Shown piece after piece: positions 11,509 through 29,343 of a stretch of DNA of 36,518 bases. Position 1 is the first letter of the stretch. The number at the start of each line of letters is the position of its first letter. The notes under the pieces are model-generated. The model made no database searches. It was given only the letters and a program-made list of their open reading frames with translations, and had not been told where the DNA came from. Source of the DNA: a virus. Made by a program: the position numbers and the translations under genes. The stretch is taken from the IMG/VR virus record IMGVR_UViG_3300017971_000529, positions 1-36,518 of that record. One strand, given 5' to 3'.

Positions 11509-12489
11509 CTATTCAGCTAAGTTAGAAAATGATTTTCCTGCTATCCAGTAGATTTCATCGTTGTTGCTTCCCGCAGGGTTCACCGTTCCGGCGACCAGTC
11601 TCATTCCTACATATGAAGTATTTGTCACTGCATCTGCAAGCAGATCAACCGCACCCAATAACGCTGTTCCTGTATCCATTCCAACTGGAACTACTGTTGC
11701 AAATGTAGCCGGATAAGATGCTGGAAGTGGGAACGTAAAGGCTGTAAACGCAGTCGAGTTTATATTGGTTGTTATGGTTGAAGCTGTAACAGCTGTGACT
11801 GTTGCTTCTAAGCCATTTATTTCGGTCATACTGTATGAATCGTCAGCCAAATTAACCCTAATTTTCTGACCTACTGTATAACCATGCGGAACAGATGTAG
11901 TTATAACAGCATTTGCTGCTTGAGAAATATTTACGATATATCTCCAGCGCGGGTAAAAAATTGGATCGTAGGGGATCCTTCTCCAGAATCCAGCTGTTCC
12001 AGCTGCACCAGGAGCATTTGCCATCGCATAAGCCATTCTAAAGCTTGTATTTGCCACTAGCGTGTCAATAGAGAAATCCCAACCGCCAAGTGTTTGAGCA
12101 GCTGTTACACTTGAAAGACGAACAATATCACCATCAGACAGGCCAGCAGTGCTTCCGGTAGCGACTACTGGTTGTGTCGCATTTGTTGTACCTGTAACTG
12201 CAACTGCCGCAGATGGGGCTGTATTTGAAGTATCAACTAAAAAGAATCCGCCACCTGCAGCAATTTGGTCAACCGCAACGGTTTGGTCTGCTGCTGGATG
12301 GTAATATAGAAGGCCGCGACCATCAGTCATTCCACGCTGCCAGTAAAATTCAAATCCATGTCCATTATTTGCAGCATCGGCTTCTGTAAGGTTTACTACA
12401 CGCATCCAATCAACACCGGCAGGAAGTACAATGTTTTTTGCGTTTCCGTCTGCAGTAAATGAACCTTGTATTAATATTGTGTTATCCAT
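11509..12489 (-). CDS. Putative head decoration / capsid-associated protein, 326 aa
   Basis: Directly after the major capsid gene and before a terminator, so it shares the strongly bounded capsid transcript. The N-terminus (ILIQGSFTADGNAKNIVLPA) and residues 30-60 (WMRVVNLTEADAANN, EFYWQRGM) resemble beta-rich capsid accessory proteins. Residues 195-255 form an FCCH-like module (ITTSVPHGYTVGQKIRVNL, then SMTEINGLEATVTAV and TINSTAF-like strands). Thr/Ala/Gly-rich, no enzyme motif. Decoration or head-fibre role inferred from position and fold pattern. Confidence 0.55.
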   Translation of the reverse strand: MDNTILIQGSFTADGNAKNIVLPAGVDWMRVVNLTEADAANNGHGFEFYWQRGMTDGRGLLYYHPAADQTVAVDQIAAGGGFFLVDTSNTAPSAAVAVTGTTNATQPVVATGSTAGLSDGDIVRLSSVTAAQTLGGWDFSIDTLVANTSFRMAYAMANAPGAAGTAGFWRRIPYDPIFYPRWRYIVNISQAANAVITTSVPHGYTVGQKIRVNLADDSYSMTEINGLEATVTAVTASTITTNINSTAFTAFTFPLPASYPATFATVVPVGMDTGTALLGAVDLLADAVTNTSYVGMRLVAGTVNPAGSNNDEIYWIAGKSFSNLAE

Positions 12490-12498
12490 ATTTATTCC

Positions 12499-13449
12499 TT
12501 AAATATTGCGGGTTGCACGCATGTTAATAACCCAGGCATCATTTACAATTCGCGATGCAAATGCCATCTTCCATGCAACAGACGCATTTTGAGCTAACGG
12601 ATCTGAATAAATTGGAGGTCTGTATATAAACTGACTTCTATAACGATCCTGCTCAACCATCATTACGCCTTCTGTTGCAACGCAGAAAATATTTAAGACA
12701 TCTGCGCCATTTGCTGAGGCATTTGGAGTAATCGAACCATCACTAGACACAAAGAATCGAAGATTCTGAATTGAGCCCCATTCTGAAGGCAACAATGAAG
12801 CTTGTGACGGATATTTAGATGCATGCAAGAAATCATTAACCGAGTTAAGATCAGCCGTAATAGAGGTATGCGCTAAAGCCATGTATGCCGATCTGATTGG
12901 ACCTGTGCCGAACTTATCTGTTCCCTCAATATTATCGGCCAATGTTTTTGCATCATTTCCAAGCAATGCTTGAACTACAAATGAAACGTCAGCAGAGGTA
13001 ATATTTGTTGGGTTATCTCCGTTTGTTCCACCAAGACAGTTGATCATTGCTGCAGTTGCAGCCATCATATCACGAACCAAATTGTCTTCAGTTTCTCTCA
13101 GTTGGAAACCGGCGCGTACTGAGTGATTAGTTAAAACTTTGTCCTGATTTTGCAAGGAAACCTGTTCGTTGATTTCATACCATGCGCCATAAAACTGCAT
13201 TTCAACGTCAATATCTACACGATCGAGATTGGTTGACGGAGGTGTAACACCTGTATTTCCTAATGGAACCAATGCGGGATCGGGTTTTGCATACCTGCTG
13301 AAACGTGCTGTATTACCGCCATTTGCAGGCATTAACACTTTCTCGCAGGGCAATGTATGAATTAAATTAGGGGTTGGCGTGCTAAGCATTCTCTCAATAA
13401 AGGTCTGTTGAACCTGTGAGGGCATCAGCGTTGTGGTTGTTACTGCCAT
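12499..13449 (-). CDS. Major capsid protein, N4-gp56-like (HK97 fold), 316 aa
   Basis: It begins MAVTTTTLMPSQVQQTFIER with AGGA about 7 nt upstream of ATG 13449; the longer reading from 13506 is rejected because it would start inside the tandem repeats. Family landmarks are GGNTARFSRYAKPDPALVPL, then TPPSTNLDRVDIDVEMQFYG and the helix LRETEDNLVRDMMAAT, which follow the N4-gp56 major capsid pattern (basic ordered strand, G-TP, v.qYG...i). Length 316 fits. It follows the scaffold gene, as usual. Expression is probably high: its own promoter, a repeat-bearing leader and flanking terminators. Confidence 0.85.
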   Translation of the reverse strand: MAVTTTTLMPSQVQQTFIERMLSTPTPNLIHTLPCEKVLMPANGGNTARFSRYAKPDPALVPLGNTGVTPPSTNLDRVDIDVEMQFYGAWYEINEQVSLQNQDKVLTNHSVRAGFQLRETEDNLVRDMMAATAAMINCLGGTNGDNPTNITSADVSFVVQALLGNDAKTLADNIEGTDKFGTGPIRSAYMALAHTSITADLNSVNDFLHASKYPSQASLLPSEWGSIQNLRFFVSSDGSITPNASANGADVLNIFCVATEGVMMVEQDRYRSQFIYRPPIYSDPLAQNASVAWKMAFASRIVNDAWVINMRATRNI

Positions 13450-13494
13450 AATTATTCCTATTTTATTAGAATAAACAAAACAATTCAAAGAACT

Positions 13495-13594
13495 GGCGAA
13501 GTTCAATACAGCCTAGGATGGCGAATCCCAATACAGCCTGGGTTGGCGAATCCCAATACAGCCCGGGTGAGCGAATCCCAATACAACTCAAGTT
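13495..13594 (-). repeat. Four 25-bp tandem repeats in the capsid gene leader
   Basis: Four units with a period of exactly 25 bp start at 13495, 13520, 13545 and 13570. Plus-strand unit core: GGCGAATCCCAATACAGCC. The two middle copies match at all but a few bases; the outer copies are diverged. They lie between the predicted promoter and the ribosome site of the major capsid gene, so most would be present in the mRNA leader. Confidence 0.85.
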
Positions 13595-16514: not shown

Positions 16515-18629
16515 CTACCCCAACTCTCCTTGAGTTGGACCAGGCAATATTGGATTACTTTCTTCTACCATAGTTTCTTGCTGAGGAGAAACAGTTTGTG
16601 GCTGCCTAACCTCTCCAAGATTCTGTGCTTCTTCTTGTTTTGCCTCAACTTTAGCACCAAGCTCTTGTGCTTGTAATACTTTTGTAAGTTCAATAAGTGT
16701 TCGCAAATTACCTAAATCAATTGACTCAAGTTCTTTGAGCGACTTTACTATATCAAGCACTCCAGACATACGATCTTTAGCTGCTTCTGCTCTGTTTTCT
16801 ATTGCAGCACTTATATTCTCGTCTACACGAGATGCTCTTTCAAGCCCTAAACCTCTGTCAGCCATTGCCCGTGATTGAGCCAATTCTGTTCTGGCCTGTG
16901 TTTCTTGCATCTGCACTTGCTGAGCCATCTGTTGCTGTTGCTGCTGGGCCTGTTGCTGTTGTTGCATCATCTGTATAAGCTCTGTTTTATTTTGTAGCGT
17001 TGTATTTTCAATAATAAATTCATCAGGTATTGGTATACCAACTTCACGCAAGTGCAATGCTTGTGCAAGCGCCTGCTGTCTTTGTGTTGTTGTGTTAATA
17101 CCATCTTCTACCGCGCAATCATATTTTCCAAAATGCTTGTTATAAAATTGTTGCGATGGCTCCTGCTCAATGATTCTTTTTACTTTACCCGGAGAGAAAT
17201 TATTCTGGACTACTTTAAGCATGATTCTTCCAAGAAGCTTTTGACTGTAATCGAGCTTATCAAATAGAGACTGCAGCGTAGTAAGTGCTGCACCTTGACG
17301 AAGCATACTGAGGATTCCTGCTTTATCATCGGTTGCAGCACCAAGGAGTTCCTCACTTACACCAGATATTTGGTTAAGTTCTTCACCAAGGATACGTGAT
17401 AATTCAATTGTGGTAGGCGGAATAGCCGGGGCTTCAATTCGTTGAATATCACCCATCTGAGCAGTTGCCTTAAGCGCAATACCTTTACCTTCTCCGGTCA
17501 TAAAGACATCGCTGGGATCTACAAGTGCATCTTCTTTGTATACCCATCCCGAATTGACCTGTGATTCCAATGTTGCAAGCTCTATAACTTTTCTTCTGTT
17601 GTACAGGAACTGCGCATCGCGAAGGCCACGAACTACACCTTGTAGACGTAATGAATATGAAGGGAGTTGCGGATTATAATAGGCAACTACAGGAACAAAT
17701 GGGTATGTATCTATGCCTAATGGATTAGGTCCATCGTAAAAAACCCTTCCTTCAATGACGACAGCCATGTTAACAGTAGGAATCGTTGTTTTTTTGAGCT
17801 TAACCTGTGGATATTGCATAAGAAACCTATCAAGGGTCTCTTTATCATCAAATGTCCACTCGAGCGTTTCACCGGACTCCATATCAACAAGAATATTTTG
17901 CTTGCGATATGTGCGATAATAAAACTCATCATAAGCAAGCAATCGGGCACTATCAACACCATAATTCTCTGGCATGTACATAAACTTGCCGTCTTTGCCG
18001 TTAGAAGACCCTCTAACCTGATAAATTTCTTCTTTATGTTGTGGCATAATAGAGGCTGCATCAGCTGGAGAAAGATAAGACCTCTTCCAAATGTAGTTAC
18101 AATCAGAGAGATCTTGCTTTCTCCAGTAAGGATCCATTAAGAAAGAGTTATATGCGCAGTTGTCAACTTTGATATCACCCGAAATGGGATCATTGCGATA
18201 ATCAGCCCAGACATGCAAAAGACTAAGACCAGTTACAACGGCGCCGTGAAACGCATCAGAAATTGTCTCTAAAATTCCTTCTTGACGATTAAGCCACATC
18301 ATAATTTTTGTGAACTGATCGGCTGTCAATTCATCATTATTTTCGACCGGAATAACGGTTATAGAGTTTCTATTGCGCCGTTGATGACCTGAAATCATCT
18401 CAACAATACGCCTTGTTCGATTAAAATTAAATTGTTTTCTCTGAAAAGCGGTCAATTGATAACGCTCCGGCCAAATTGTTTGGTCGCCAGCCTCAACACG
18501 GGTATCAAAGGCCGCCTCTGCCCAATAAGCTTGATTATATGAAACACTATCAATGTAGCACTTCTCCATATGCTTCAATAAGGAGGAGTACCTGCCATCT
18601 TGATTAAAACTTGTCTTTGGGAATATCAT
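16515..18629 (-). CDS. Portal protein, P22 gp1-like, 704 aa
   Basis: It forms the dodecameric vertex through which DNA is packaged and ejected. Residues 1-120 have AYWAEAAFDTRVEAGDQ and FNRTRRIVEMISGHQRRNRN, the conserved early block of P22-type portals. Residues 325-360 (YSLRLQGVVRGLRDAQFLYN) and 405-450 (ELNQISGVSEELLGA, then AGILSMLRQGAA) form the stem/clip block. Residues 555-580 are a Gln run and 590-660 a coiled coil, as in the P22 barrel (725 aa). ATG 18629 is preferred over 18635, because AAGG touches the latter but lies 6 nt from the former. That ribosome site sits at the foot of a palindrome. Confidence 0.85.
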   Translation of the reverse strand: MIFPKTSFNQDGRYSSLLKHMEKCYIDSVSYNQAYWAEAAFDTRVEAGDQTIWPERYQLTAFQRKQFNFNRTRRIVEMISGHQRRNRNSITVIPVENNDELTADQFTKIMMWLNRQEGILETISDAFHGAVVTGLSLLHVWADYRNDPISGDIKVDNCAYNSFLMDPYWRKQDLSDCNYIWKRSYLSPADAASIMPQHKEEIYQVRGSSNGKDGKFMYMPENYGVDSARLLAYDEFYYRTYRKQNILVDMESGETLEWTFDDKETLDRFLMQYPQVKLKKTTIPTVNMAVVIEGRVFYDGPNPLGIDTYPFVPVVAYYNPQLPSYSLRLQGVVRGLRDAQFLYNRRKVIELATLESQVNSGWVYKEDALVDPSDVFMTGEGKGIALKATAQMGDIQRIEAPAIPPTTIELSRILGEELNQISGVSEELLGAATDDKAGILSMLRQGAALTTLQSLFDKLDYSQKLLGRIMLKVVQNNFSPGKVKRIIEQEPSQQFYNKHFGKYDCAVEDGINTTTQRQQALAQALHLREVGIPIPDEFIIENTTLQNKTELIQMMQQQQQAQQQQQQMAQQVQMQETQARTELAQSRAMADRGLGLERASRVDENISAAIENRAEAAKDRMSGVLDIVKSLKELESIDLGNLRTLIELTKVLQAQELGAKVEAKQEEAQNLGEVRQPQTVSPQQETMVEESNPILPGPTQGELG

Positions 18630-18636
18630 GAACATC

Positions 18637-18719: not shown

Positions 18720-18887
18720 TTATGGCTTGCCAGATTTTTCTATATACACCCTATGTAACGCATCGCCAATCAACCTTCGAATCGTAATCCCACTCGTAAC
18801 AGCTAGCAATCTTATCACTTGATACAACTCTTTATTCAATTCAACTGTAATTTTCACTTTGTCAATTTTAGATATCTTATTATGCAT
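18720..18887 (-). CDS. Ribbon-helix-helix repressor, 55 aa
   Basis: From ATG 18887 (GGGAG about 7 nt upstream) the product is MHNKISKIDKVKITVELNKE followed by LYQVIRLLAVTSGITIRRLI and GDALHRVYIEK. Strand KVKITVEL plus helices LNKELYQVIRLLAVTSG and TIRRLIGDALHRVYIE is a clear ribbon-helix-helix layout. It lies divergently from the three-gene exported-protein operon and upstream of the portal. Three 8-bp direct repeats overlap both divergent promoters, so autorepression with joint control of that operon is likely. It is the second RHH gene of this genome, and the two differ in sequence. Confidence 0.7.
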   Translation of the reverse strand: MHNKISKIDKVKITVELNKELYQVIRLLAVTSGITIRRLIGDALHRVYIEKSGKP

Positions 18888-18889
18888 AC

Positions 18890-18917
18890 TTGACTCCCTT
18901 GTTTTATATGGTAATAT
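18890..18917 (+). promoter_or_regulatory. Promoter of the exported-protein operon
   Basis: TTGACT (18890-18895), 16 bp, TAATAT (18912-18917) on the plus strand. The -10 box overlaps the tandem TATGGT repeats. The leader would be about 50 nt. Confidence 0.55.
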
Positions 18918-18929
18918 GGTTATATGGTA
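18906..18929. promoter_or_regulatory. Three 8-bp direct repeats, candidate RHH operator
   Basis: The core TATGGT occurs at 18907, 18915 and 18923 with a period of exactly 8 bp (unit ATATGGTA/T). The repeats cover the -10 boxes of both divergent promoters. RHH repressors often bind short direct repeats cooperatively, so this is the best candidate site for the 55-aa repressor encoded 19 bp away. Confidence 0.55.
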
Positions 18930-18952
18930 ACCCTGCAGGACGTTATTGTCAA
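18924..18952 (-). promoter_or_regulatory. Promoter of the RHH repressor gene
   Basis: On the minus strand, TTGACA (18952-18947), 17 bp, TACCAT (18929-18924). The -35 matches consensus fully; the -10 is part of the operator-like repeat. Confidence 0.55.
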
Positions 18953-18974
18953 TTAATTATTATGAAGGAATTGT

Positions 18975-19205
18975 ATGAATATAAACAAAGTGCCTTTAAT
19001 GGTGCTAATTTTAGCGTGCTCTTGTGGAATATCTGGAGATACGCCGACATCGTCGCAACTTAATACATTTGAACAAACTAGTAAGAGGAAACCGACAAGA
19101 GGAGTCTGGAGGTCGGTACTTGCGCATTATATATATTATAATGCAGTTAATCCCCTATTAAAGTTGACAAGTTTTCTTTGCAAAGATGAGATGAAAGAAC
19201 AATAA
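18975..19205 (+). CDS. Small exported or lipoprotein-like protein, 76 aa
   Basis: First gene of a three-gene plus-strand operon; GAAGGA stands 6 nt before ATG 18975. Residues 1-17 (MNINKVPLMVLILACSC) are a signal peptide with cysteines at 15 and 17; ILAC is an imperfect lipobox. The mature part is short and polar (SGDTPTSSQLNTFEQTSK) with a basic, aromatic section (RGVWRSVLAHYIYYNAVN). I do not recognise a family. Export and possible lipidation would place it in the host envelope during infection. Confidence 0.55.
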   Translation: MNINKVPLMVLILACSCGISGDTPTSSQLNTFEQTSKRKPTRGVWRSVLAHYIYYNAVNPLLKLTSFLCKDEMKEQ

Positions 19206-19214
19206 GGAATTGTT

Positions 19215-19715
19215 ATGAAAAAAGTACTAGCGGTGCTATTGATGGGAACTATGTCGTTGAATATATGTGGCATGGAAGAAGAGCTAAATGCCTTTAAACC
19301 AAATGATATTAGTCATGTTAAACTACTTAAAAAGGGTGGTATATTTTCTACTCATGATGGCCAAAAACGTCGCATGATCAATCCCGCCTTCATAGATAAA
19401 CGTATTAAAATACTAAAGCCTGGACAGTTAAAAACACTTCTATCTAACGACTTCTACCTCAAGCTTAACAAGTTTAACAACTCGGATGATTATAAGCTTG
19501 AGCTTGCCGGCAGACAAAGAGGTGGTGGACTTGGGCTAGCAATATTAACTTTTGTTGGCGGAACCGCAGCTGTTATTGTTTCAAACATAGCCCTCGTCAA
19601 AAAGAACGAACATAAGCCCGTAGCTGCTGGGACTGCTGCCGGAGCATGCACAATGACAGGCATGGGGCTTGTCGCCGACTTAACTGCAAAAGCCCTTGCT
19701 GTTCCAGGATTCTAA
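19215..19715 (+). CDS. Exported/membrane protein with glycine-rich helices, 166 aa
   Basis: AAGGAA lies about 6 nt before ATG 19215, 9 bp after the previous stop. Residues 1-19 form a signal peptide (MKKVLAVLLMGTMSLNICG) followed by MEEELN. Residues 30-98 are a basic globular section. Residues 103-128 (RGGGLGLAILTFVGGTAAVI) and 136-152 (AAGTAAGACTMTGMGL) are Gly/Ala-rich membrane helices. Pore-like, holin-like or superinfection-exclusion roles are all compatible with this shape; none is shown. The signal-peptide end just before ME plus acids matches that of the 157-aa protein at 14903. Confidence 0.6.
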   Translation: MKKVLAVLLMGTMSLNICGMEEELNAFKPNDISHVKLLKKGGIFSTHDGQKRRMINPAFIDKRIKILKPGQLKTLLSNDFYLKLNKFNNSDDYKLELAGRQRGGGLGLAILTFVGGTAAVIVSNIALVKKNEHKPVAAGTAAGACTMTGMGLVADLTAKALAVPGF

Positions 19716-19725
19716 AGGAGCAAAA

Positions 19726-20070
19726 ATGTTAAATATATCCTATATAAAAGCCAAGCTGCCTTATTTTATAGGCATTATAGCGTGTAGCTTAGGTTTTAAT
19801 TATATAAACGGGGCAGACATATTAAATGATTGGATGTTGGCAATTAGTTTTTCTATTGCAGCAATAATACTTCCATCTGCATGCCTACAAATAACAGGTA
19901 AATATAACCCGCTTAAAACGGCGTTATTTGTGCTTCCGCTTATATTCACATATGGCTTTATGTGGTATACAGGTGATATGACAGCATCATGCTCTATAAA
20001 AATGTTTACTTTGTGTTTCTTATTAATATTTCTTGTTCATAAAGCTGCATACGCTAAAGAAACCAAATAA
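19726..20070 (+). CDS. Four-helix integral membrane protein, 114 aa
   Basis: Third gene of the operon; AAAGGAG is 6 nt before ATG 19726. Hydrophobic segments lie near residues 10-27 (LPYFIGIIACSLGFNYI), 36-55 (WMLAISFSIAAIILPSACL), 63-82 (LKTALFVLPLIFTYGFMWYT) and 88-107 (CSIKMFTLCFLLIFLVHKAA). No family is recognised. With two other envelope proteins before it and a terminator after it, it completes an envelope-modifying unit, possibly for superinfection exclusion or lysis. Confidence 0.6.
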   Translation: MLNISYIKAKLPYFIGIIACSLGFNYINGADILNDWMLAISFSIAAIILPSACLQITGKYNPLKTALFVLPLIFTYGFMWYTGDMTASCSIKMFTLCFLLIFLVHKAAYAKETK

Positions 20071-20077
20071 ACACTTC

Positions 20078-20138
20078 TTGAGTTACAACTACTAACTCAA
20101 ATTACACTGCAAGCGGGTCTTTAATGGCCCGCTTTTTT
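20078..20138 (+). terminator. Tandem hairpins and rho-independent terminator of the envelope operon
   Basis: A first hairpin has perfect 8-bp arms TTGAGTTA / TAACTCAA (20078-20100, 7-nt loop). The terminator proper follows: AGCGGG / CCCGCT (20112-20133) and a run of six T to 20138. Outer CTGCA/TGCAG arms extend the second stem. It works for the plus strand only and stops about 55 bp before the terminase stop. Confidence 0.8.
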
Positions 20139-20192: not shown

Positions 20193-21539
20193 CTAAAAAA
20201 CTTCTTTAAATGGTGAACCAAAATCTTTATTTCCGTATACAGCCTTCTGATAACGATCTTGTAGCTGTTCCGGCGTAGATTCTTTTGACAACTTATTCAA
20301 AGATATACACGCCATTCTCCATGCATCACAGGCGTGCGAAAATTGATCGTGCAACGGCCTGTCGTGATACACTTTTCTTAAGTTATCAAACTCTTTTCTA
20401 TAGTTTTCCAGAGCCTTGATGAATTGTCCACACTTAGACTCATCAATCCAACAACGAGGCAAGACAGTTCTTACGGCTTCTATGCCATCGTTAATAGATA
20501 AACGTGGCGCTACGGTGAAATTTATACCAAGATTGCGCGCCTTCTCCAGTCGTGACATTCCCGACCCCCATTCACGCACACTTATATCATGAGGCGCTAT
20601 GTATTTTCCATAAATATACTCTTTATCCTTGAGAACTTGTACGTAATGCTCAAGACCTTGAGAGTGATTCTCATAGTAATCAATTATGTGAATAACTGTT
20701 CCAATAACCTGAAAGAATATAAGCACGGTTGAATCTCTCATGCCAATATCACACGCTACATGCACAGGAAACCCAGGCTCCCACGGAACATCGCCTATTT
20801 TTCCTTCAAATCTCATCTTGTCAACATACCTACCATAATATGAGCCTTCGATTCCTATTGAAAAGTCACAAAGGTATTCTTGAGCTGCAAGTTCCTCTGA
20901 AATCTCACCATTGCGTATATCACATTGAATAGATTCCCATGGGATATGTCCAGTGTCGTGAACCGTAAGCAACTCGCAATACCACTCAGGGCTGTTTTTT
21001 GCAATCTGATATAAATCGTAAAAAGCTCCACGCCCACGTGGCGTACTTATGATAACCACAGTTCCATCATTTGCGTTCAAAATAGGCCGAACAAACTTAT
21101 ATGCTCTATCGTCCGCCAAAGCAAACTCAGAAAAAACAACCATAACCGGGTTAGTTCCTACAAGAGACGTATCATATGTGTCGGACCCAATAAGCCTGAT
21201 AATTGATCCATTAATCAATTCTATTAGCATTTCTTGAGAATTCTTACGCTTAATTAGTTCTGGCGGAATGCAATCAAGAAAACGTTTTCCATCATTGGTT
21301 ATTGAATCCCAAACAACTAGTCGTGCTTGCTTAAATGTGGGTAAACAATAGAAATATGATCCGACCTTGCGAAGAGCACACCGCAACATCATATTGAATA
21401 CCACAAAATCTTTTCCAGCTCGCCTACTCCAGATTGCCAATATTTTCTTATATTTTCCCTCTTCTATAACAGAAGCAAGCTTATATTGATAATCACGCGG
21501 CTTAAACTGATTTAACTTGACCTGTGTGGCAACCCTCAT
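20193..21539 (-). CDS. terL: Terminase large subunit, 448 aa
   Basis: ATP-driven packaging motor with nuclease. The ATPase domain has a deviant Walker A (WSRRAGKD, 37-44), adenine-side LAIW, Walker B VMVVFSE (132-138, catalytic E138) and coupling motif STPRG (165-169). The RNase H-like nuclease follows with ACDIGMRDST (D264), APHDIS (D318) and HDQFSHACDAWRM (D405). Length is typical. It lies 28 bp after the small subunit gene. The Walker A with RR.GK is usual for phage terminases. The start is ATG 21539. Confidence 0.93.
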   Translation of the reverse strand: MRVATQVKLNQFKPRDYQYKLASVIEEGKYKKILAIWSRRAGKDFVVFNMMLRCALRKVGSYFYCLPTFKQARLVVWDSITNDGKRFLDCIPPELIKRKNSQEMLIELINGSIIRLIGSDTYDTSLVGTNPVMVVFSEFALADDRAYKFVRPILNANDGTVVIISTPRGRGAFYDLYQIAKNSPEWYCELLTVHDTGHIPWESIQCDIRNGEISEELAAQEYLCDFSIGIEGSYYGRYVDKMRFEGKIGDVPWEPGFPVHVACDIGMRDSTVLIFFQVIGTVIHIIDYYENHSQGLEHYVQVLKDKEYIYGKYIAPHDISVREWGSGMSRLEKARNLGINFTVAPRLSINDGIEAVRTVLPRCWIDESKCGQFIKALENYRKEFDNLRKVYHDRPLHDQFSHACDAWRMACISLNKLSKESTPEQLQDRYQKAVYGNKDFGSPFKEVF

Positions 21540-22426: not shown

Positions 22427-22842
22427 GGTTATCTCCTTTGGTTTGTTTTTTTATACCATGTGGATGACAGTTCGTATAGGGCTGTCGCTTTTTATGGTGG
22501 ACGTTGGGGCTGTGTTATGATTGATGGTTTCCCAAAAAATGGAAAACACACATAAAGAAAAAGACATTTTTTGTGAGGTGGTACGTAAGCTTTTTGGAGG
22601 TAGTTAGAGGTAGTACGTAAGCTTTTTAGAGGTAGTTAGAGGTAGTACGTAAGCTTTTTCAGAGGTGGTACACAAGCAAATAGTAGGTAGTACGTAAGCT
22701 TTTTCAGAGGTGGTACACAAGCAAATAGTAGGTGGTACGTAAGCTTTTTGGAGGTAGTATACTTATCGGAACAACAAAATGCTTTAAACGGTGAAACGTT
22801 ATCTCATTATTAGTGGTTATGCGCATTCCCCTTTTTTGGGTA
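22427..22842. other. 416-bp non-coding region between rusA and the Rep-like gene
   Basis: No protein gene is supported here. It holds the leader and promoter region of rusA (TATAAA-like box near 22450; GACAG/CTGTC arms at about 22467-22487), an A-rich stretch at about 22530-22572, the iteron-like repeats, and an 80-bp stretch before the Rep stop with only weak hairpins. Confidence 0.5.
22575..22765 (+). repeat. Iteron-like direct repeats, candidate replication origin
   Basis: GTACGTAAGC occurs at 22581, 22613, 22645, 22690 and 22735, each preceded by GAGGTGGT or GGTAGGT-like bases and followed by a T run (unit GGTAGTACGTAAGCTTTTT). Variants GTACACAAGC lie at 22668 and 22713, so from 22645 on the units alternate every 22-23 bp. 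A truncated copy ends at about 22765. All copies face the same way. Same-direction repeats of about two helical turns next to a Rep-type gene are the hallmark of iteron origins. Alternatives are an incompatibility locus or a repressor array. Confidence 0.7.
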
Positions 22843-24162
22843 TTAAGCTGTTGCAATTGACTGTTGAAACGAGCGCTTATTGTTTTGTTCAAAAAGTTGA
22901 TTAAGTTCTTCTGTGCACGCTTCAATTTGGTTTTTACAGAAAGTTATACTTGACTCTCTTGCAAACTCATTAAAGCTCTTTACGGGATCTTGTAAAAGCA
23001 AAGTACACTTTTCAATTTCCTCTTTAAGGAATTCGATGCGCTCATCAGGAACAACAACTTTCTTTTTGTAAGTATCGTAAGGAGACCAGCCAAGATTTTT
23101 TGTACGTTGTTTAAATTTCACAACAAGGGGACGAGGTTCTTCGTTTTCTATAAGTTTAGGAATTTTAGTAATCTCGCAAAGCTTGTAATAAAAGTTCCAA
23201 TCTGGCGCAATGTGTCGCTGTTTACAGTAGTTTAAAAGCATAGACATAAGCCATCCCATGCGGTCACGAATTGGTTCTTTTGTTTTCTTTGTGCCTTCAA
23301 CAACGGGGCGAACAAACGTAAGCACGTACTTAAGAGCATCTTGTCCGAAAGCGATAAGCTTGAATTGTTCTCGATTATTGAGTGACAATAGCGTTGTAAG
23401 TTCTTCGATTTCAGGGGTTATAAGAGCACTGCGAATACTCTCGTTGTTCATGAGATCTTGTACACGTGGATCACTTCCATTAGCCAGGAGCCATTCTTTT
23501 TGCAAATCGCTTATCATCTTCAACCCTCTCTTGACGTGCTCTTTTCTTTCTCTTTCCTGTTTTGTTAAAAACCCTTCCCCGTCCCCATCGATTACGGTCT
23601 GACTTTCTGTCGCTAACCACGCGCGCGCGCACGCATTATGGGGTATGGGGTTGTTAGATAAATATATATAATTAATATAATTATTACTCTGTGTGACATT
23701 TTCGCTGGCAGGCGGTACTAGATCGTATCTTTCAGAGTGTAATTCATGAAGCATAATATGCTCCTGCCTCTCTGCTGAAAGTGTGTTTATCCAGTATGAA
23801 TAAGCATGCCTCCCTTTCTTAAGAGAATGAGACAATTTAAACTCATTTGGAGCATATTTATTCTCTTGATACTTAATCAAAAACCCATTATCCCGCAATT
23901 TATTGGTCGTGCGAACTACCGACCGCACAGAACAATTTGCACGCTCTGCAATGTATTTATTTGTCATACATATATGATCTGCAGTCCTAAAAGATAAAAT
24001 AACCTCAGCTATACGACACTCAGTTCTACTAAGCCCGGACAAGAAGTTTTCTATGTTTTGATCGAAAAATAGACGATTTTCATGAGAAATGCCTGGCTTT
24101 AGCCATTTTTGTTTATTTTTTACTTGATTTTCGTGTGATTCTGAGTTATTCTTCATACTCAT
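22843..24162 (-). CDS. Winged-helix Rep-like replication initiator, 439 aa
   Basis: Residues 44-103 form a winged helix: LSRTECRIAEVILSFRTADH, then MTNKYIAERANCSVRSVVRT and NKLRDNGFLIKYQ. This is the arrangement of replication initiators of plasmids and phages. The middle (about 200-330) is helical; the C-terminal 60 residues form a charged coil (DERIEFLKEEIEKC). The 3' end adjoins the iteron array. The ATG at 24162 (or 24156) lacks a clear ribosome site; a 9-bp hairpin lies 9 nt upstream, hinting at translational control. No helicase or primase motif is visible. Initiator is the best guess; a transcription regulator is the alternative. Confidence 0.55.
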   Translation of the reverse strand: MSMKNNSESHENQVKNKQKWLKPGISHENRLFFDQNIENFLSGLSRTECRIAEVILSFRTADHICMTNKYIAERANCSVRSVVRTTNKLRDNGFLIKYQENKYAPNEFKLSHSLKKGRHAYSYWINTLSAERQEHIMLHELHSERYDLVPPASENVTQSNNYINYIYLSNNPIPHNACARAWLATESQTVIDGDGEGFLTKQERERKEHVKRGLKMISDLQKEWLLANGSDPRVQDLMNNESIRSALITPEIEELTTLLSLNNREQFKLIAFGQDALKYVLTFVRPVVEGTKKTKEPIRDRMGWLMSMLLNYCKQRHIAPDWNFYYKLCEITKIPKLIENEEPRPLVVKFKQRTKNLGWSPYDTYKKKVVVPDERIEFLKEEIEKCTLLLQDPVKSFNEFARESSITFCKNQIEACTEELNQLFEQNNKRSFQQSIATA

Positions 24163-25364: not shown

Positions 25365-26006
25365 ATGAATGAGTGGGTAAATTTAATGAAAGATATTGGG
25401 GTGGAAGCAAGTGAAATTTTAAAAATAATAGCCCAATATAATGCTGATTTGGCAAACTGCCAGGGTCAAATAGGGGCAATTGACGAAGAAGAAACAGGCG
25501 GGTTCGGTAACCGTACATGGTCATACGCAGATTGGCGAACCATTAGAAATGAGACAAAGAAAATATTACAAGACAACGGACTCTCATGCAAGATTTGGCA
25601 TGAACGAAATGGTGAAAAAATAGATATTATTGCAGAAGTTCGTCATAAGTCAGGATATTTTGAACAACACAGATGCCCTGCATTATTTAAAATAGACGCA
25701 GGAAAAGGAAAGGTAGAACATGCTGTTTGTGGGGCAATAACTCAATATAAACGCTATATATATAACGGACTATTTGGAATAACCACCGCAGAGGCAGACT
25801 CAGAAAAGAAGTCCAACGAGGTTAATGCGCAAGAAAATCCTGAAACAGAAAAAGAATCCAACTGGGTCAATGCGCAAGAAAACTCCGAAACAGAATTGCC
25901 TCCATGTCCAAAATGCAACAAGCCACTAAGAGAACGCAAAGGAGCGAACGGCCCCTTTTATGGATGTTCAGGATACCCTAAATGTAAATTTACCCTAGAT
26001 GGCTAA
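25365..26006 (+). CDS. ERF-like single-strand annealing protein fused to a topoisomerase-type zinc ribbon, 213 aa
   Basis: Residues 50-145 follow the ERF pattern: WSYADWRTIRNETKKILQDN, GLSCKIWH, AEVRHKSGYFE, AVCGAITQYKRYIYNGLFGI (compare the G.aiTY.kRY.l..llGi signature). Residues 150-178 form a linker made of a 15-residue tandem duplication. Residues 181-213 form a zinc ribbon of the topoisomerase I C-terminal type: CPKC, then GPFYGCSGYPKCKF (C181, C184, C201, C207). It probably anneals complementary strands during phage recombination; the ribbon would add DNA or RNA binding. The fusion is unusual to my knowledge. It is followed by a helicase gene. Confidence 0.7.
   Translation: MNEWVNLMKDIGVEASEILKIIAQYNADLANCQGQIGAIDEEETGGFGNRTWSYADWRTIRNETKKILQDNGLSCKIWHERNGEKIDIIAEVRHKSGYFEQHRCPALFKIDAGKGKVEHAVCGAITQYKRYIYNGLFGITTAEADSEKKSNEVNAQENPETEKESNWVNAQENSETELPPCPKCNKPLRERKGANGPFYGCSGYPKCKFTLDG
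25812..25901 (+). repeat. 45-bp in-frame tandem duplication in the ERF-zinc ribbon linker
   Basis: Two copies start at 25812 and 25857 (period 45 bp), encoding SNEVNAQENPETEKE and SNWVNAQENSETELP. The close DNA match points to a recent duplication that lengthened the flexible linker. Confidence 0.75.
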
Positions 26007-28319: not shown

Positions 28320-29084
28320 TTAACGGGGCGACTTTCTATCTCCACGCGCATGTAATACAAATTTTCTGACTTGGGTTATCGCATGACTGAACTTTGATTT
28401 TGGCATCGAATCAAGACTGTTGATATTATATGCATTCATCAATTCCTCAGCAATATCAGGAAATCCATTCAGTTCAGACTCAAGCTCGTCAAGCTGTTCC
28501 TTTGTAATTGCATCATACGATTCTTTCTTTCGTACAAGCTTCTTTTGCAAGGGAACGGCAATCTCATCAAATATCGCATCACTTGCAGCATCTCCATCAT
28601 CATCTTTAGGATCACCCTCAAGAGTTACCCCCAACATAGACAAAGCCTGCTGTCTACGCAAGTCAGCCATCGTACTATCAAAGGTCATAAGGTCATTGCG
28701 CAACGGAATCACCCGTATAATAGACCCCTTCCATTGACCACTTGAATGCAAAATCTCTGTATGCAATAACGTTCCACCGCTATCAGTTATCTCAGTCCAC
28801 TGATTCAAAGCCAGCTCATACTTTGCAAGTATAGGCCTTATATGTCTCATCACGATATCAAGATCACTATAGTCATCATTCCATGTAGCACTTGTTCTAT
28901 TGTAGGGAATGGCAGGAAACTCGCCCTGAGCAGCAGACAGTGACTTGGCAAGCTCATTTATCGAGGAGCTACTATAACGTGGCTCCTCGACCGTTTTTAT
29001 TCGCTTAACAACTTCTTCTTCGATATAGTTATTAAGCTCTTGTAGTTCCTCAAGCTTAGTTTTGAATGTTAGCTCGTCAGCCAT
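28320..29084 (-). CDS. erf: ERF-family single-strand annealing protein, 254 aa
   Basis: Residues 40-130 follow the ERF family: SINELAKSLSAAQGEFPAIP, then DDYSDLDIVMRHIRPILAKY, ELALNQWTEI and LLHTEILHSSGQWKGS, RVIPLR. ERF proteins form rings that anneal single strands. Compared with typical ERF the GSaiTY signature appears as DLRRQQALSMLGVTLEGDP. Residues 180-254 form an acidic and helical tail. The start at 29084 is overlapped by a 29-aa membrane protein frame and has a distant AGGAG. It is the last gene of the minus-strand fibre cluster and convergent with the helicase. It is the second ERF-like protein here. Confidence 0.75.
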   Translation of the reverse strand: MADELTFKTKLEELQELNNYIEEEVVKRIKTVEEPRYSSSSINELAKSLSAAQGEFPAIPYNRTSATWNDDYSDLDIVMRHIRPILAKYELALNQWTEITDSGGTLLHTEILHSSGQWKGSIIRVIPLRNDLMTFDSTMADLRRQQALSMLGVTLEGDPKDDDGDAASDAIFDEIAVPLQKKLVRKKESYDAITKEQLDELESELNGFPDIAEELMNAYNINSLDSMPKSKFSHAITQVRKFVLHARGDRKSPR

Positions 29085-29158
29085 GAATATATTGCCACTC
29101 CTGTTACCGCTATAAAGCCTCCAAGAAAGATATAAAACAACATTTCAGGTGCTATCAT
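29069..29158 (-). CDS. Tiny membrane protein, 29 aa, overlapping the ERF start
   Basis: ATG 29158 overlaps the previous TGA (ATGA), with AAAGGA 6 nt upstream, a better ribosome site than that of the ERF gene. The product is MIAPEMLFYIFLGGFIAVTG followed by VAIYSWLTS: one transmembrane helix. It ends 16 bp into the ERF gene in another frame, so ERF may depend on its translation. Function unknown; small lysis-related proteins look like this, but so do many others. Confidence 0.5.
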   Translation of the reverse strand: MIAPEMLFYIFLGGFIAVTGVAIYSWLTS

Positions 29159-29343
29159 TTCTTATCCTTTGGTTCCGGCGTGTCGGGGGAAAGATCGATA
29201 TTCACGCCGGTCTTGGCTTTTATTATCTCCTCTACGGACTCCTCTATTACATTATCAGTTTTCAGTCCAGGAATCCAGCGGGAAGCAATACCACCAAGAC
29301 CTAACAACACTAAACCACCATATATAACATAACTCCAATCCAT
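29155..29343 (-). CDS. Small anchored protein, 62 aa
   Basis: N-terminal membrane helix (residues 5-24: YVIYGGLVLLGLGGIASRWI) followed by a soluble acidic part with DNVIEESVEEIIKAKTGVNI and DLSPDTPEP. The pattern (TM, then D...EE..E..ik..tG..iDlsP) resembles small proteins near phage lysis and tail genes. It starts one base after the stop of the fibre gene. A spanin or holin partner role is a guess. Confidence 0.55.
   Translation of the reverse strand: MDWSYVIYGGLVLLGLGGIASRWIPGLKTDNVIEESVEEIIKAKTGVNIDLSPDTPEPKDKK

Follow-up and report, generated by a model that had tools for sequence, protein, structure and literature searches.

A candidate envelope-modifying cassette between the terminase and portal genes of a P22-type phage carries a domain common to proteins of the chlamydial phylum

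What are a small repressor-like gene and an operon of envelope-type genes doing between the terminase and portal genes of a tailed phage, antisense to both? The question is raised by a linear IMG/VR virus record of 36.5 kb (the whole stretch of DNA analysed, here called the window), which represents a P22-type tailed phage. The P22-like portal gene (16515-18635, minus strand; PF16510, E 1.4e-73) and the large terminase gene (20193-21539, minus strand; PHROG 2, E 1.8e-30) flank the insert, and the coat gene lies at 12499-13506, adjoined by a 25-bp unit in 3.3 copies (13504-13585). Further genes in the window encode a helicase, a RusA-like resolvase and two Erf-like annealing proteins on opposite strands (25365-26006 and 28320-29084), the former with an additional C-terminal part resembling a zinc ribbon. 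Upstream of a DnaD-like replication gene (22843-24162) there are iteron-like tandem repeats with 32/45-bp units and GAGGTAGTACGTAAGC (22575-22759), a possible replication origin. No integrase was seen within the window.

The first-pass annotation had described a 55-aa RHH gene diverging from a three-gene operon, and this arrangement was found as described. P0001 (18720-18887, minus strand) encodes the putative RHH (Arc-like) regulator, which matches PHROG 582, 'Arc-like repressor', with E 1.7e-4 and stays below the cut-offs of the Pfam RHH models. On the plus strand, P0002 (18975-19205; 76 aa) has an N-terminal hydrophobic, lipobox-like segment indicative of a signal sequence or possible lipoprotein. 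It is followed by P0003 (19215-19715; 166 aa), which combines a signal sequence, an N-domain ending in GGG (residues 20-105, codons 19272-19529, delimited by profile scores) and two Gly-rich hydrophobic segments that are predicted to form a two-helix hairpin (residues 107-161, codons 19533-19697; hydropathy and a low-confidence AlphaFold2 model). The last gene, P0004 (19726-20070; 114 aa), encodes about four hydrophobic segments. The envelope-type character given earlier to these genes holds, although the signal sequence of P0003 had been missed, and the four helices of P0004 are visible by eye only, two of them passing the hydropathy threshold. The products are very probably located in the envelope. 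The tandem hairpins reported at the end of the operon are both real: a first one with an 8-bp stem (20078-20100, plus strand) and an intrinsic terminator with a 9-bp stem and a T-run (20111-20134, plus strand), together worth -27.5 kcal/mol. This terminator would keep the operon transcript from entering the terminase gene.

The start codons of the two transcription units are separated by a divergent regulatory gap of 87 bp (18888-18974), where 90 bp had been given. Within it lie three tandem 8-bp units, ATATGGTA/ATATGGTT/ATATGGTA (18906-18929), the presumed RHH operator. The units start at 18906, 18914 and 18922 and their TATGGT motifs at 18907, 18915 and 18923, which confirms the exact 8-bp spacing noticed earlier as well as the position of the motifs over both predicted -10 boxes. 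For random 87-bp stretches that keep the order-1 composition of the gap, a lag-8 match like this one has a probability of about 1e-4, rising to about 4e-4 when lags 6-12 are allowed, and no second place of this kind occurs in the window. The promoters themselves are predicted by consensus match only, TTGACA-17-TACCAT for the RHH gene (18952-18924, minus strand; 10/12) and TTGACT-16-TAATAT for the operon (18890-18917, plus strand; 9/12), and the count of promoter-like matches, 6 against 6.1 in shuffles, is not above chance. Binding of the RHH protein to these repeats, with repression of the two divergent promoters as the result, is probable, and we consider autorepression of the module likely. 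Since such binding would shut both promoters, the operon would be controlled apart from the late genes opposite, and would presumably be on while the late operon is off, either early or in the prophage.

Among the properties that mark a moron are absence of the genes from the corresponding site in close relatives, a promoter and terminator of its own, and expression from the prophage. A terminase query against IMG/VR, from which 80 relatives were kept, bears on the first. In most of the nearest relatives with a related portal, only 39-273 bp separate terminase and portal. The relatives compared at this slot have terminases 70-43% identical to that of the window, and L003, at 70%, is among those with the short gap, so that the cassette is absent there and from most near relatives. 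As for the second property, the terminator is clear and the promoter matches are well placed, with the reservation on their number given above. Other, unrelated genes occupy the slot in L002, L007 and L009, and in a 125-kb contig, G171:C1, different small Gly-rich membrane ORFs lie between a degenerate terminase and a portal fragment. Because its contents differ in this way, the slot is variable and the module of the window is one among several cargoes. The cassette is thus very probably an autonomous addition to the terminase-portal slot, which supports the earlier picture of a self-contained, separately transcribed and probably autorepressed envelope module and adds that, compared with the relatives, it is an extra insert. 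Intein-like inserts interrupt the terminase genes of L004 (2680-4977, at the end of the gene) and L018 (6774-9242). The Gly-rich ORFs inside the decayed terminase/portal pair of G171:C1 (L193/L194, 19400-21800) form a family that has undergone duplication and whose members start with MNIDNCT.RKEYLSMPE.

The proteins of the operon had been said to match no family. For curated collections this is correct, as the cassette gave no envelope-protein family match in Pfam, PHROGs, NCBIfam or PADLOC. Nothing was found with exact peptide patterns of P0003 and P0004 in IMG/VR, with P0003 in GTDB contigs or plasmids, or with P0001-P0004 in phages. When the three proteins were sought in other phages and in host genomes, P0002 and P0004 had no convincing relatives, and their matches in 234 genomes from the phylum of a Chlamydiia MAG (L082) were marginal, many of them with internal stops. 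P0003, in contrast, does have relatives. As a query against the same 234 genomes it retrieved L107 (E 1.3e-8) and L108, to which profiles added more; L110-L113, also among its first matches, are chance hits (a methyltransferase and other known proteins). The shared part is a domain of about 85 residues (residues ~20-105 of P0003) with the pattern ...Y.l......Y.l....R..GGG, for which Pfam, NCBIfam and PHROGs have no family. With P0003 left out of profile construction, its domain scores 42 bits against a profile of 8 sequences and 51 bits against one of 19, while the best of 20,000 shuffles reached 10 and 12 bits against the same profiles; their members were collected by searches starting from P0003, which itself remained outside the tested models. 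The hydrophobic tail adds nothing to the score. P0003 thus has what defines the family, an ~85-aa domain ending in R-x-x-GGG with a significant profile score, and it is almost certainly homologous to the proteins of the phylum in this part. The cassette can therefore no longer be called one without relatives, the domain of P0003 being common to that phylum and the core of the cassette being present, as described below, in three other phage lineages.

At E<=1e-3 the N-domain is found in about 14 of the 234 genomes of the phylum and in 0 of 398 Pseudomonadota. The Gly-Gly pair is invariant in 16/16 aligned members, and beyond it the cellular proteins diverge into Gly/Ala-rich hydrophobic helices, Asn/Ser-rich tails, ankyrin repeats (confirmed by Pfam), GTPase-like parts and long coiled regions. 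Small Gly-rich hydrophobic proteins, perhaps partners, are encoded just after the N-domain genes in L107 (2081-2326) and L108 (2300-2644). Two AlphaFold2 models from four phage sequences have a mean pLDDT of 52, and about 70 in the domain; with low confidence, they place a beta-hairpin, a helix and a second beta-hairpin before two long helices. Fold comparison of these models gave no significant match, and the likeness of the helical hairpin to the ATP-synthase c-subunit (Z 6.4) was set aside as a common arrangement. The Arg-x-x-Gly-Gly end and the beta-beta-alpha-beta-beta order had suggested a ubiquitin-like (beta-grasp) domain. This reading is not claimed, since it had support neither from PDB profiles nor from Foldseek with the two low-confidence models. 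By gene neighborhood, the domain may belong to a ubiquitin-related effector group, because a three-gene set in L130 (48-2205) consists of a weak zf-Nse/U-box-like protein, an unknown protein and an N-domain protein, and L128 has a similar set.

The same phylum, whose name is taken from the title of the MAG L082, emerges when the phage itself is considered. Full-length relatives of the terminase, 50-42% identical, are present in its genomes. G136:C19, a phage contig of 40.7 kb, shares synteny with the window, and in G171:C1 the terminase (42%) and portal fragment lie beside RecA-, ParA- and aminoacyl-tRNA-ligase-like ORFs, names that were read from the ORF sequences without a family-library run. 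Judged by this chromosome-like setting, the terminase/portal pair is a decayed prophage. Taken together, the terminase and portal relatives in contigs of the phylum and the distribution of the N-domain over this phylum and the Pseudomonadota make an environmental chlamydia the host with high probability. The phages known for Chlamydia are microviruses; to our knowledge, few if any tailed phages of chlamydiae have been described, and a literature search found no paper on them.

The cellular N-domain profile was also used to scan the fetched phage loci. Among 50 whole phage records, 4 carry the N-domain, and these represent three lineages: L006 (991-1521), L018 (4299-5000) and L022 (10632-11333), the last being one phage together with L023 and L025. 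In all three the protein has the same plan as P0003, with signal sequence, N-domain, GGG and Gly-rich hydrophobic tail. After its gene come those of two tiny proteins with a single hydrophobic segment (29-44 aa), of which the second overlaps the first by ATGA or starts within a few bases of it, and then a hairpin. In the window, P0004 with its 114 aa stands in place of the two tiny proteins, and the additional small exported P0002 precedes the core gene. Among 559 distinct ORFs of at least 150 aa from about 90 phage loci, 5 have two consecutive tiny hydrophobic ORFs after them: the N-domain genes of these three lineages, plus a homologous pair from other loci. With the five distributed randomly, the probability that all three N-domain genes would be hit is about 3.5e-7, for a criterion framed after the three had been seen. 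Counting the window, at least four phage lineages thus have the core in cassette form, while regulators and insertion points change. In the three other lineages the sites differ, one lying upstream of early genes, one between the scaffold and coat genes in antisense orientation, and one ahead of the terminase region. L006 has an HTH_17/MerR regulator directly upstream of its cassette (HTH_17, E 4e-13) and L018 a divergent MerR/excisionase-like regulator adjoining it, so that, with RHH in the window, the regulator is exchangeable. Operator-like repeats were not found in the other cassettes at the stringency used for the window. On these comparisons, the core of the cassette is the exported N-domain protein plus small membrane protein(s), with the RHH gene and operator outside it. 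The domain tree did not resolve and gave no support for descent of the four phage forms from one ancestor. Queries with P0007, P0008 and the L006 terminase retrieved the same records and no further phage relatives, and the L022 terminase led to 12 loci with no new N-domain carrier. Divergent from the N-domain gene of L022 is a gene for a 144-aa signal-peptide/TM protein (11566-12000).

Because the same core is found in at least three other phages, the cassette probably serves phages repeatedly as a means of altering the envelope of chlamydiae. Our preferred explanation of the whole, which we put forward tentatively, is a regulated phage moron with P0003 at its core that modifies the envelope of the infected bacterium. 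P0003 would be exported to the cell envelope and work in it together with the small membrane protein(s) of the neighboring gene(s). The envelope would thereby be altered against other phages, and of the jobs that the cassette could have, superinfection exclusion by blocking DNA entry, in the manner of P22 SieA, is by analogy the most likely one, though itself a possibility only. Counting against the explanation are the lack of convincing relatives for P0002 and P0004, the fact that no integrase, as a sign of lysogeny, was seen in the window, and the orientation of the cassette in L006 and L018, where it runs with the neighboring phage genes, as early or lytic expression would equally explain.

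The alternative that survives best, still an unlikely one, is lysogenic conversion, with the exported N-domain protein imitating chlamydial surface or effector-type proteins and altering the interaction of the bacterium with its protist. In the phylum the N-domain does indeed head large proteins of ankyrin, GTPase-like and hydrophobic kinds, similar in character to effector-type proteins, and expanded families of eukaryotic-like secreted proteins in Parachlamydiaceae (PMC4209131) count in the same direction. However, the phage forms have a Sec-type N-terminal signal sequence that is absent from the cellular forms, and with it the products should stop at the bacterial envelope; moreover, no effector activity of the N-domain is known. 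We give slightly less credence to the idea that the phages repeatedly carry an exported form of a targeting or processing domain specific to chlamydiae, with GGG as its site of cleavage or recognition, and that they use it to alter the symbiont surface and with it the symbiont's life in the protist. If true, this would be a three-level interaction of phage, chlamydia and protist with a new protein family.

A lysis cassette, in which holin-like small membrane proteins and the exported Gly-rich protein disrupt the unusual chlamydial envelope, is about as improbable. The tiny single-TM proteins do come in pairs, and the window proteins that were scanned included no recognisable lysozyme, amidase or holin. 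Yet the cassette is missing at this site in close relatives, and in the window and in L022 it is antisense to the late genes and set apart by its own terminator; another single-TM ORF adjoins the tail genes. This other single-TM ORF (29155-29343; 62 aa, without family match) immediately follows a tail gene and is a candidate holin. Still less probable is a toxin/immunity or bacteriocin-like pair, with GGG as the end of a leader, the Gly-rich tail as the membrane-active part and the tiny membrane proteins as immunity. Here the invariant GG (16/16) would fit, as it stands exactly between a folded domain and a highly variable tail with small membrane partners coming next, but the cellular relatives carry very large soluble proteins beyond GGG, and no C39-type peptidase or transporter adjoins the cassette. 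Finally, P0002 and P0004 are without relatives, as in a chance assemblage of unrelated small ORFs, which is very improbable given the significant domain of P0003 and the recurrence of the cassette plan in other phages.

The cassette ties a tailed-phage group to the chlamydial phylum and brings out an undescribed domain common to phage proteins and large effector-like chlamydial proteins. The operon is small and clonable, and a role in exclusion, lysis or symbiosis is testable in surrogate hosts.

Among known systems, SieA of P22 is an inner-membrane protein that blocks DNA entry (PMC10883804). Like SieA and comparable phage morons, the genes described here are additional ones in a P22-type phage that encode membrane proteins and are presumably separately expressed; unlike SieA, to which there is no sequence relation (no SieA-type family match in Pfam, PHROGs, NCBIfam or PADLOC), they comprise an exported domain protein with partners, an RHH protein and a domain of the host phylum. 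The regulator is reminiscent of Arc/Mnt-type repressors in its small RHH protein, its weak Arc-like profile match and its tandem repeats over divergent -10 boxes, whereas the ATATGGTA units are direct and non-palindromic, and the operator is a predicted one only. MetJ boxes have the 8-bp spacing of these tandem repeats. P0003 itself calls to mind the chlamydial Inc proteins, type III substrates with a soluble part and a bilobal two-helix hydrophobic hairpin with a short loop (PMC3048545). It has two predicted helices and a short loop as well, in a low-confidence model, but Inc proteins use type III secretion and have no Sec signal, while a hydrophobic N-terminal signal is found in 4/4 phage forms, and the N-domain is no defining feature of Inc proteins. 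The NEX/PEX effectors of Parachlamydiaceae carry N-terminal F-box or RING/U-box domains (PMC4209131). The GGG N-domain differs from these and has no name, but the proteins that bear it are, like the NEX/PEX families, phylum-specific, modular and combined with repeats.
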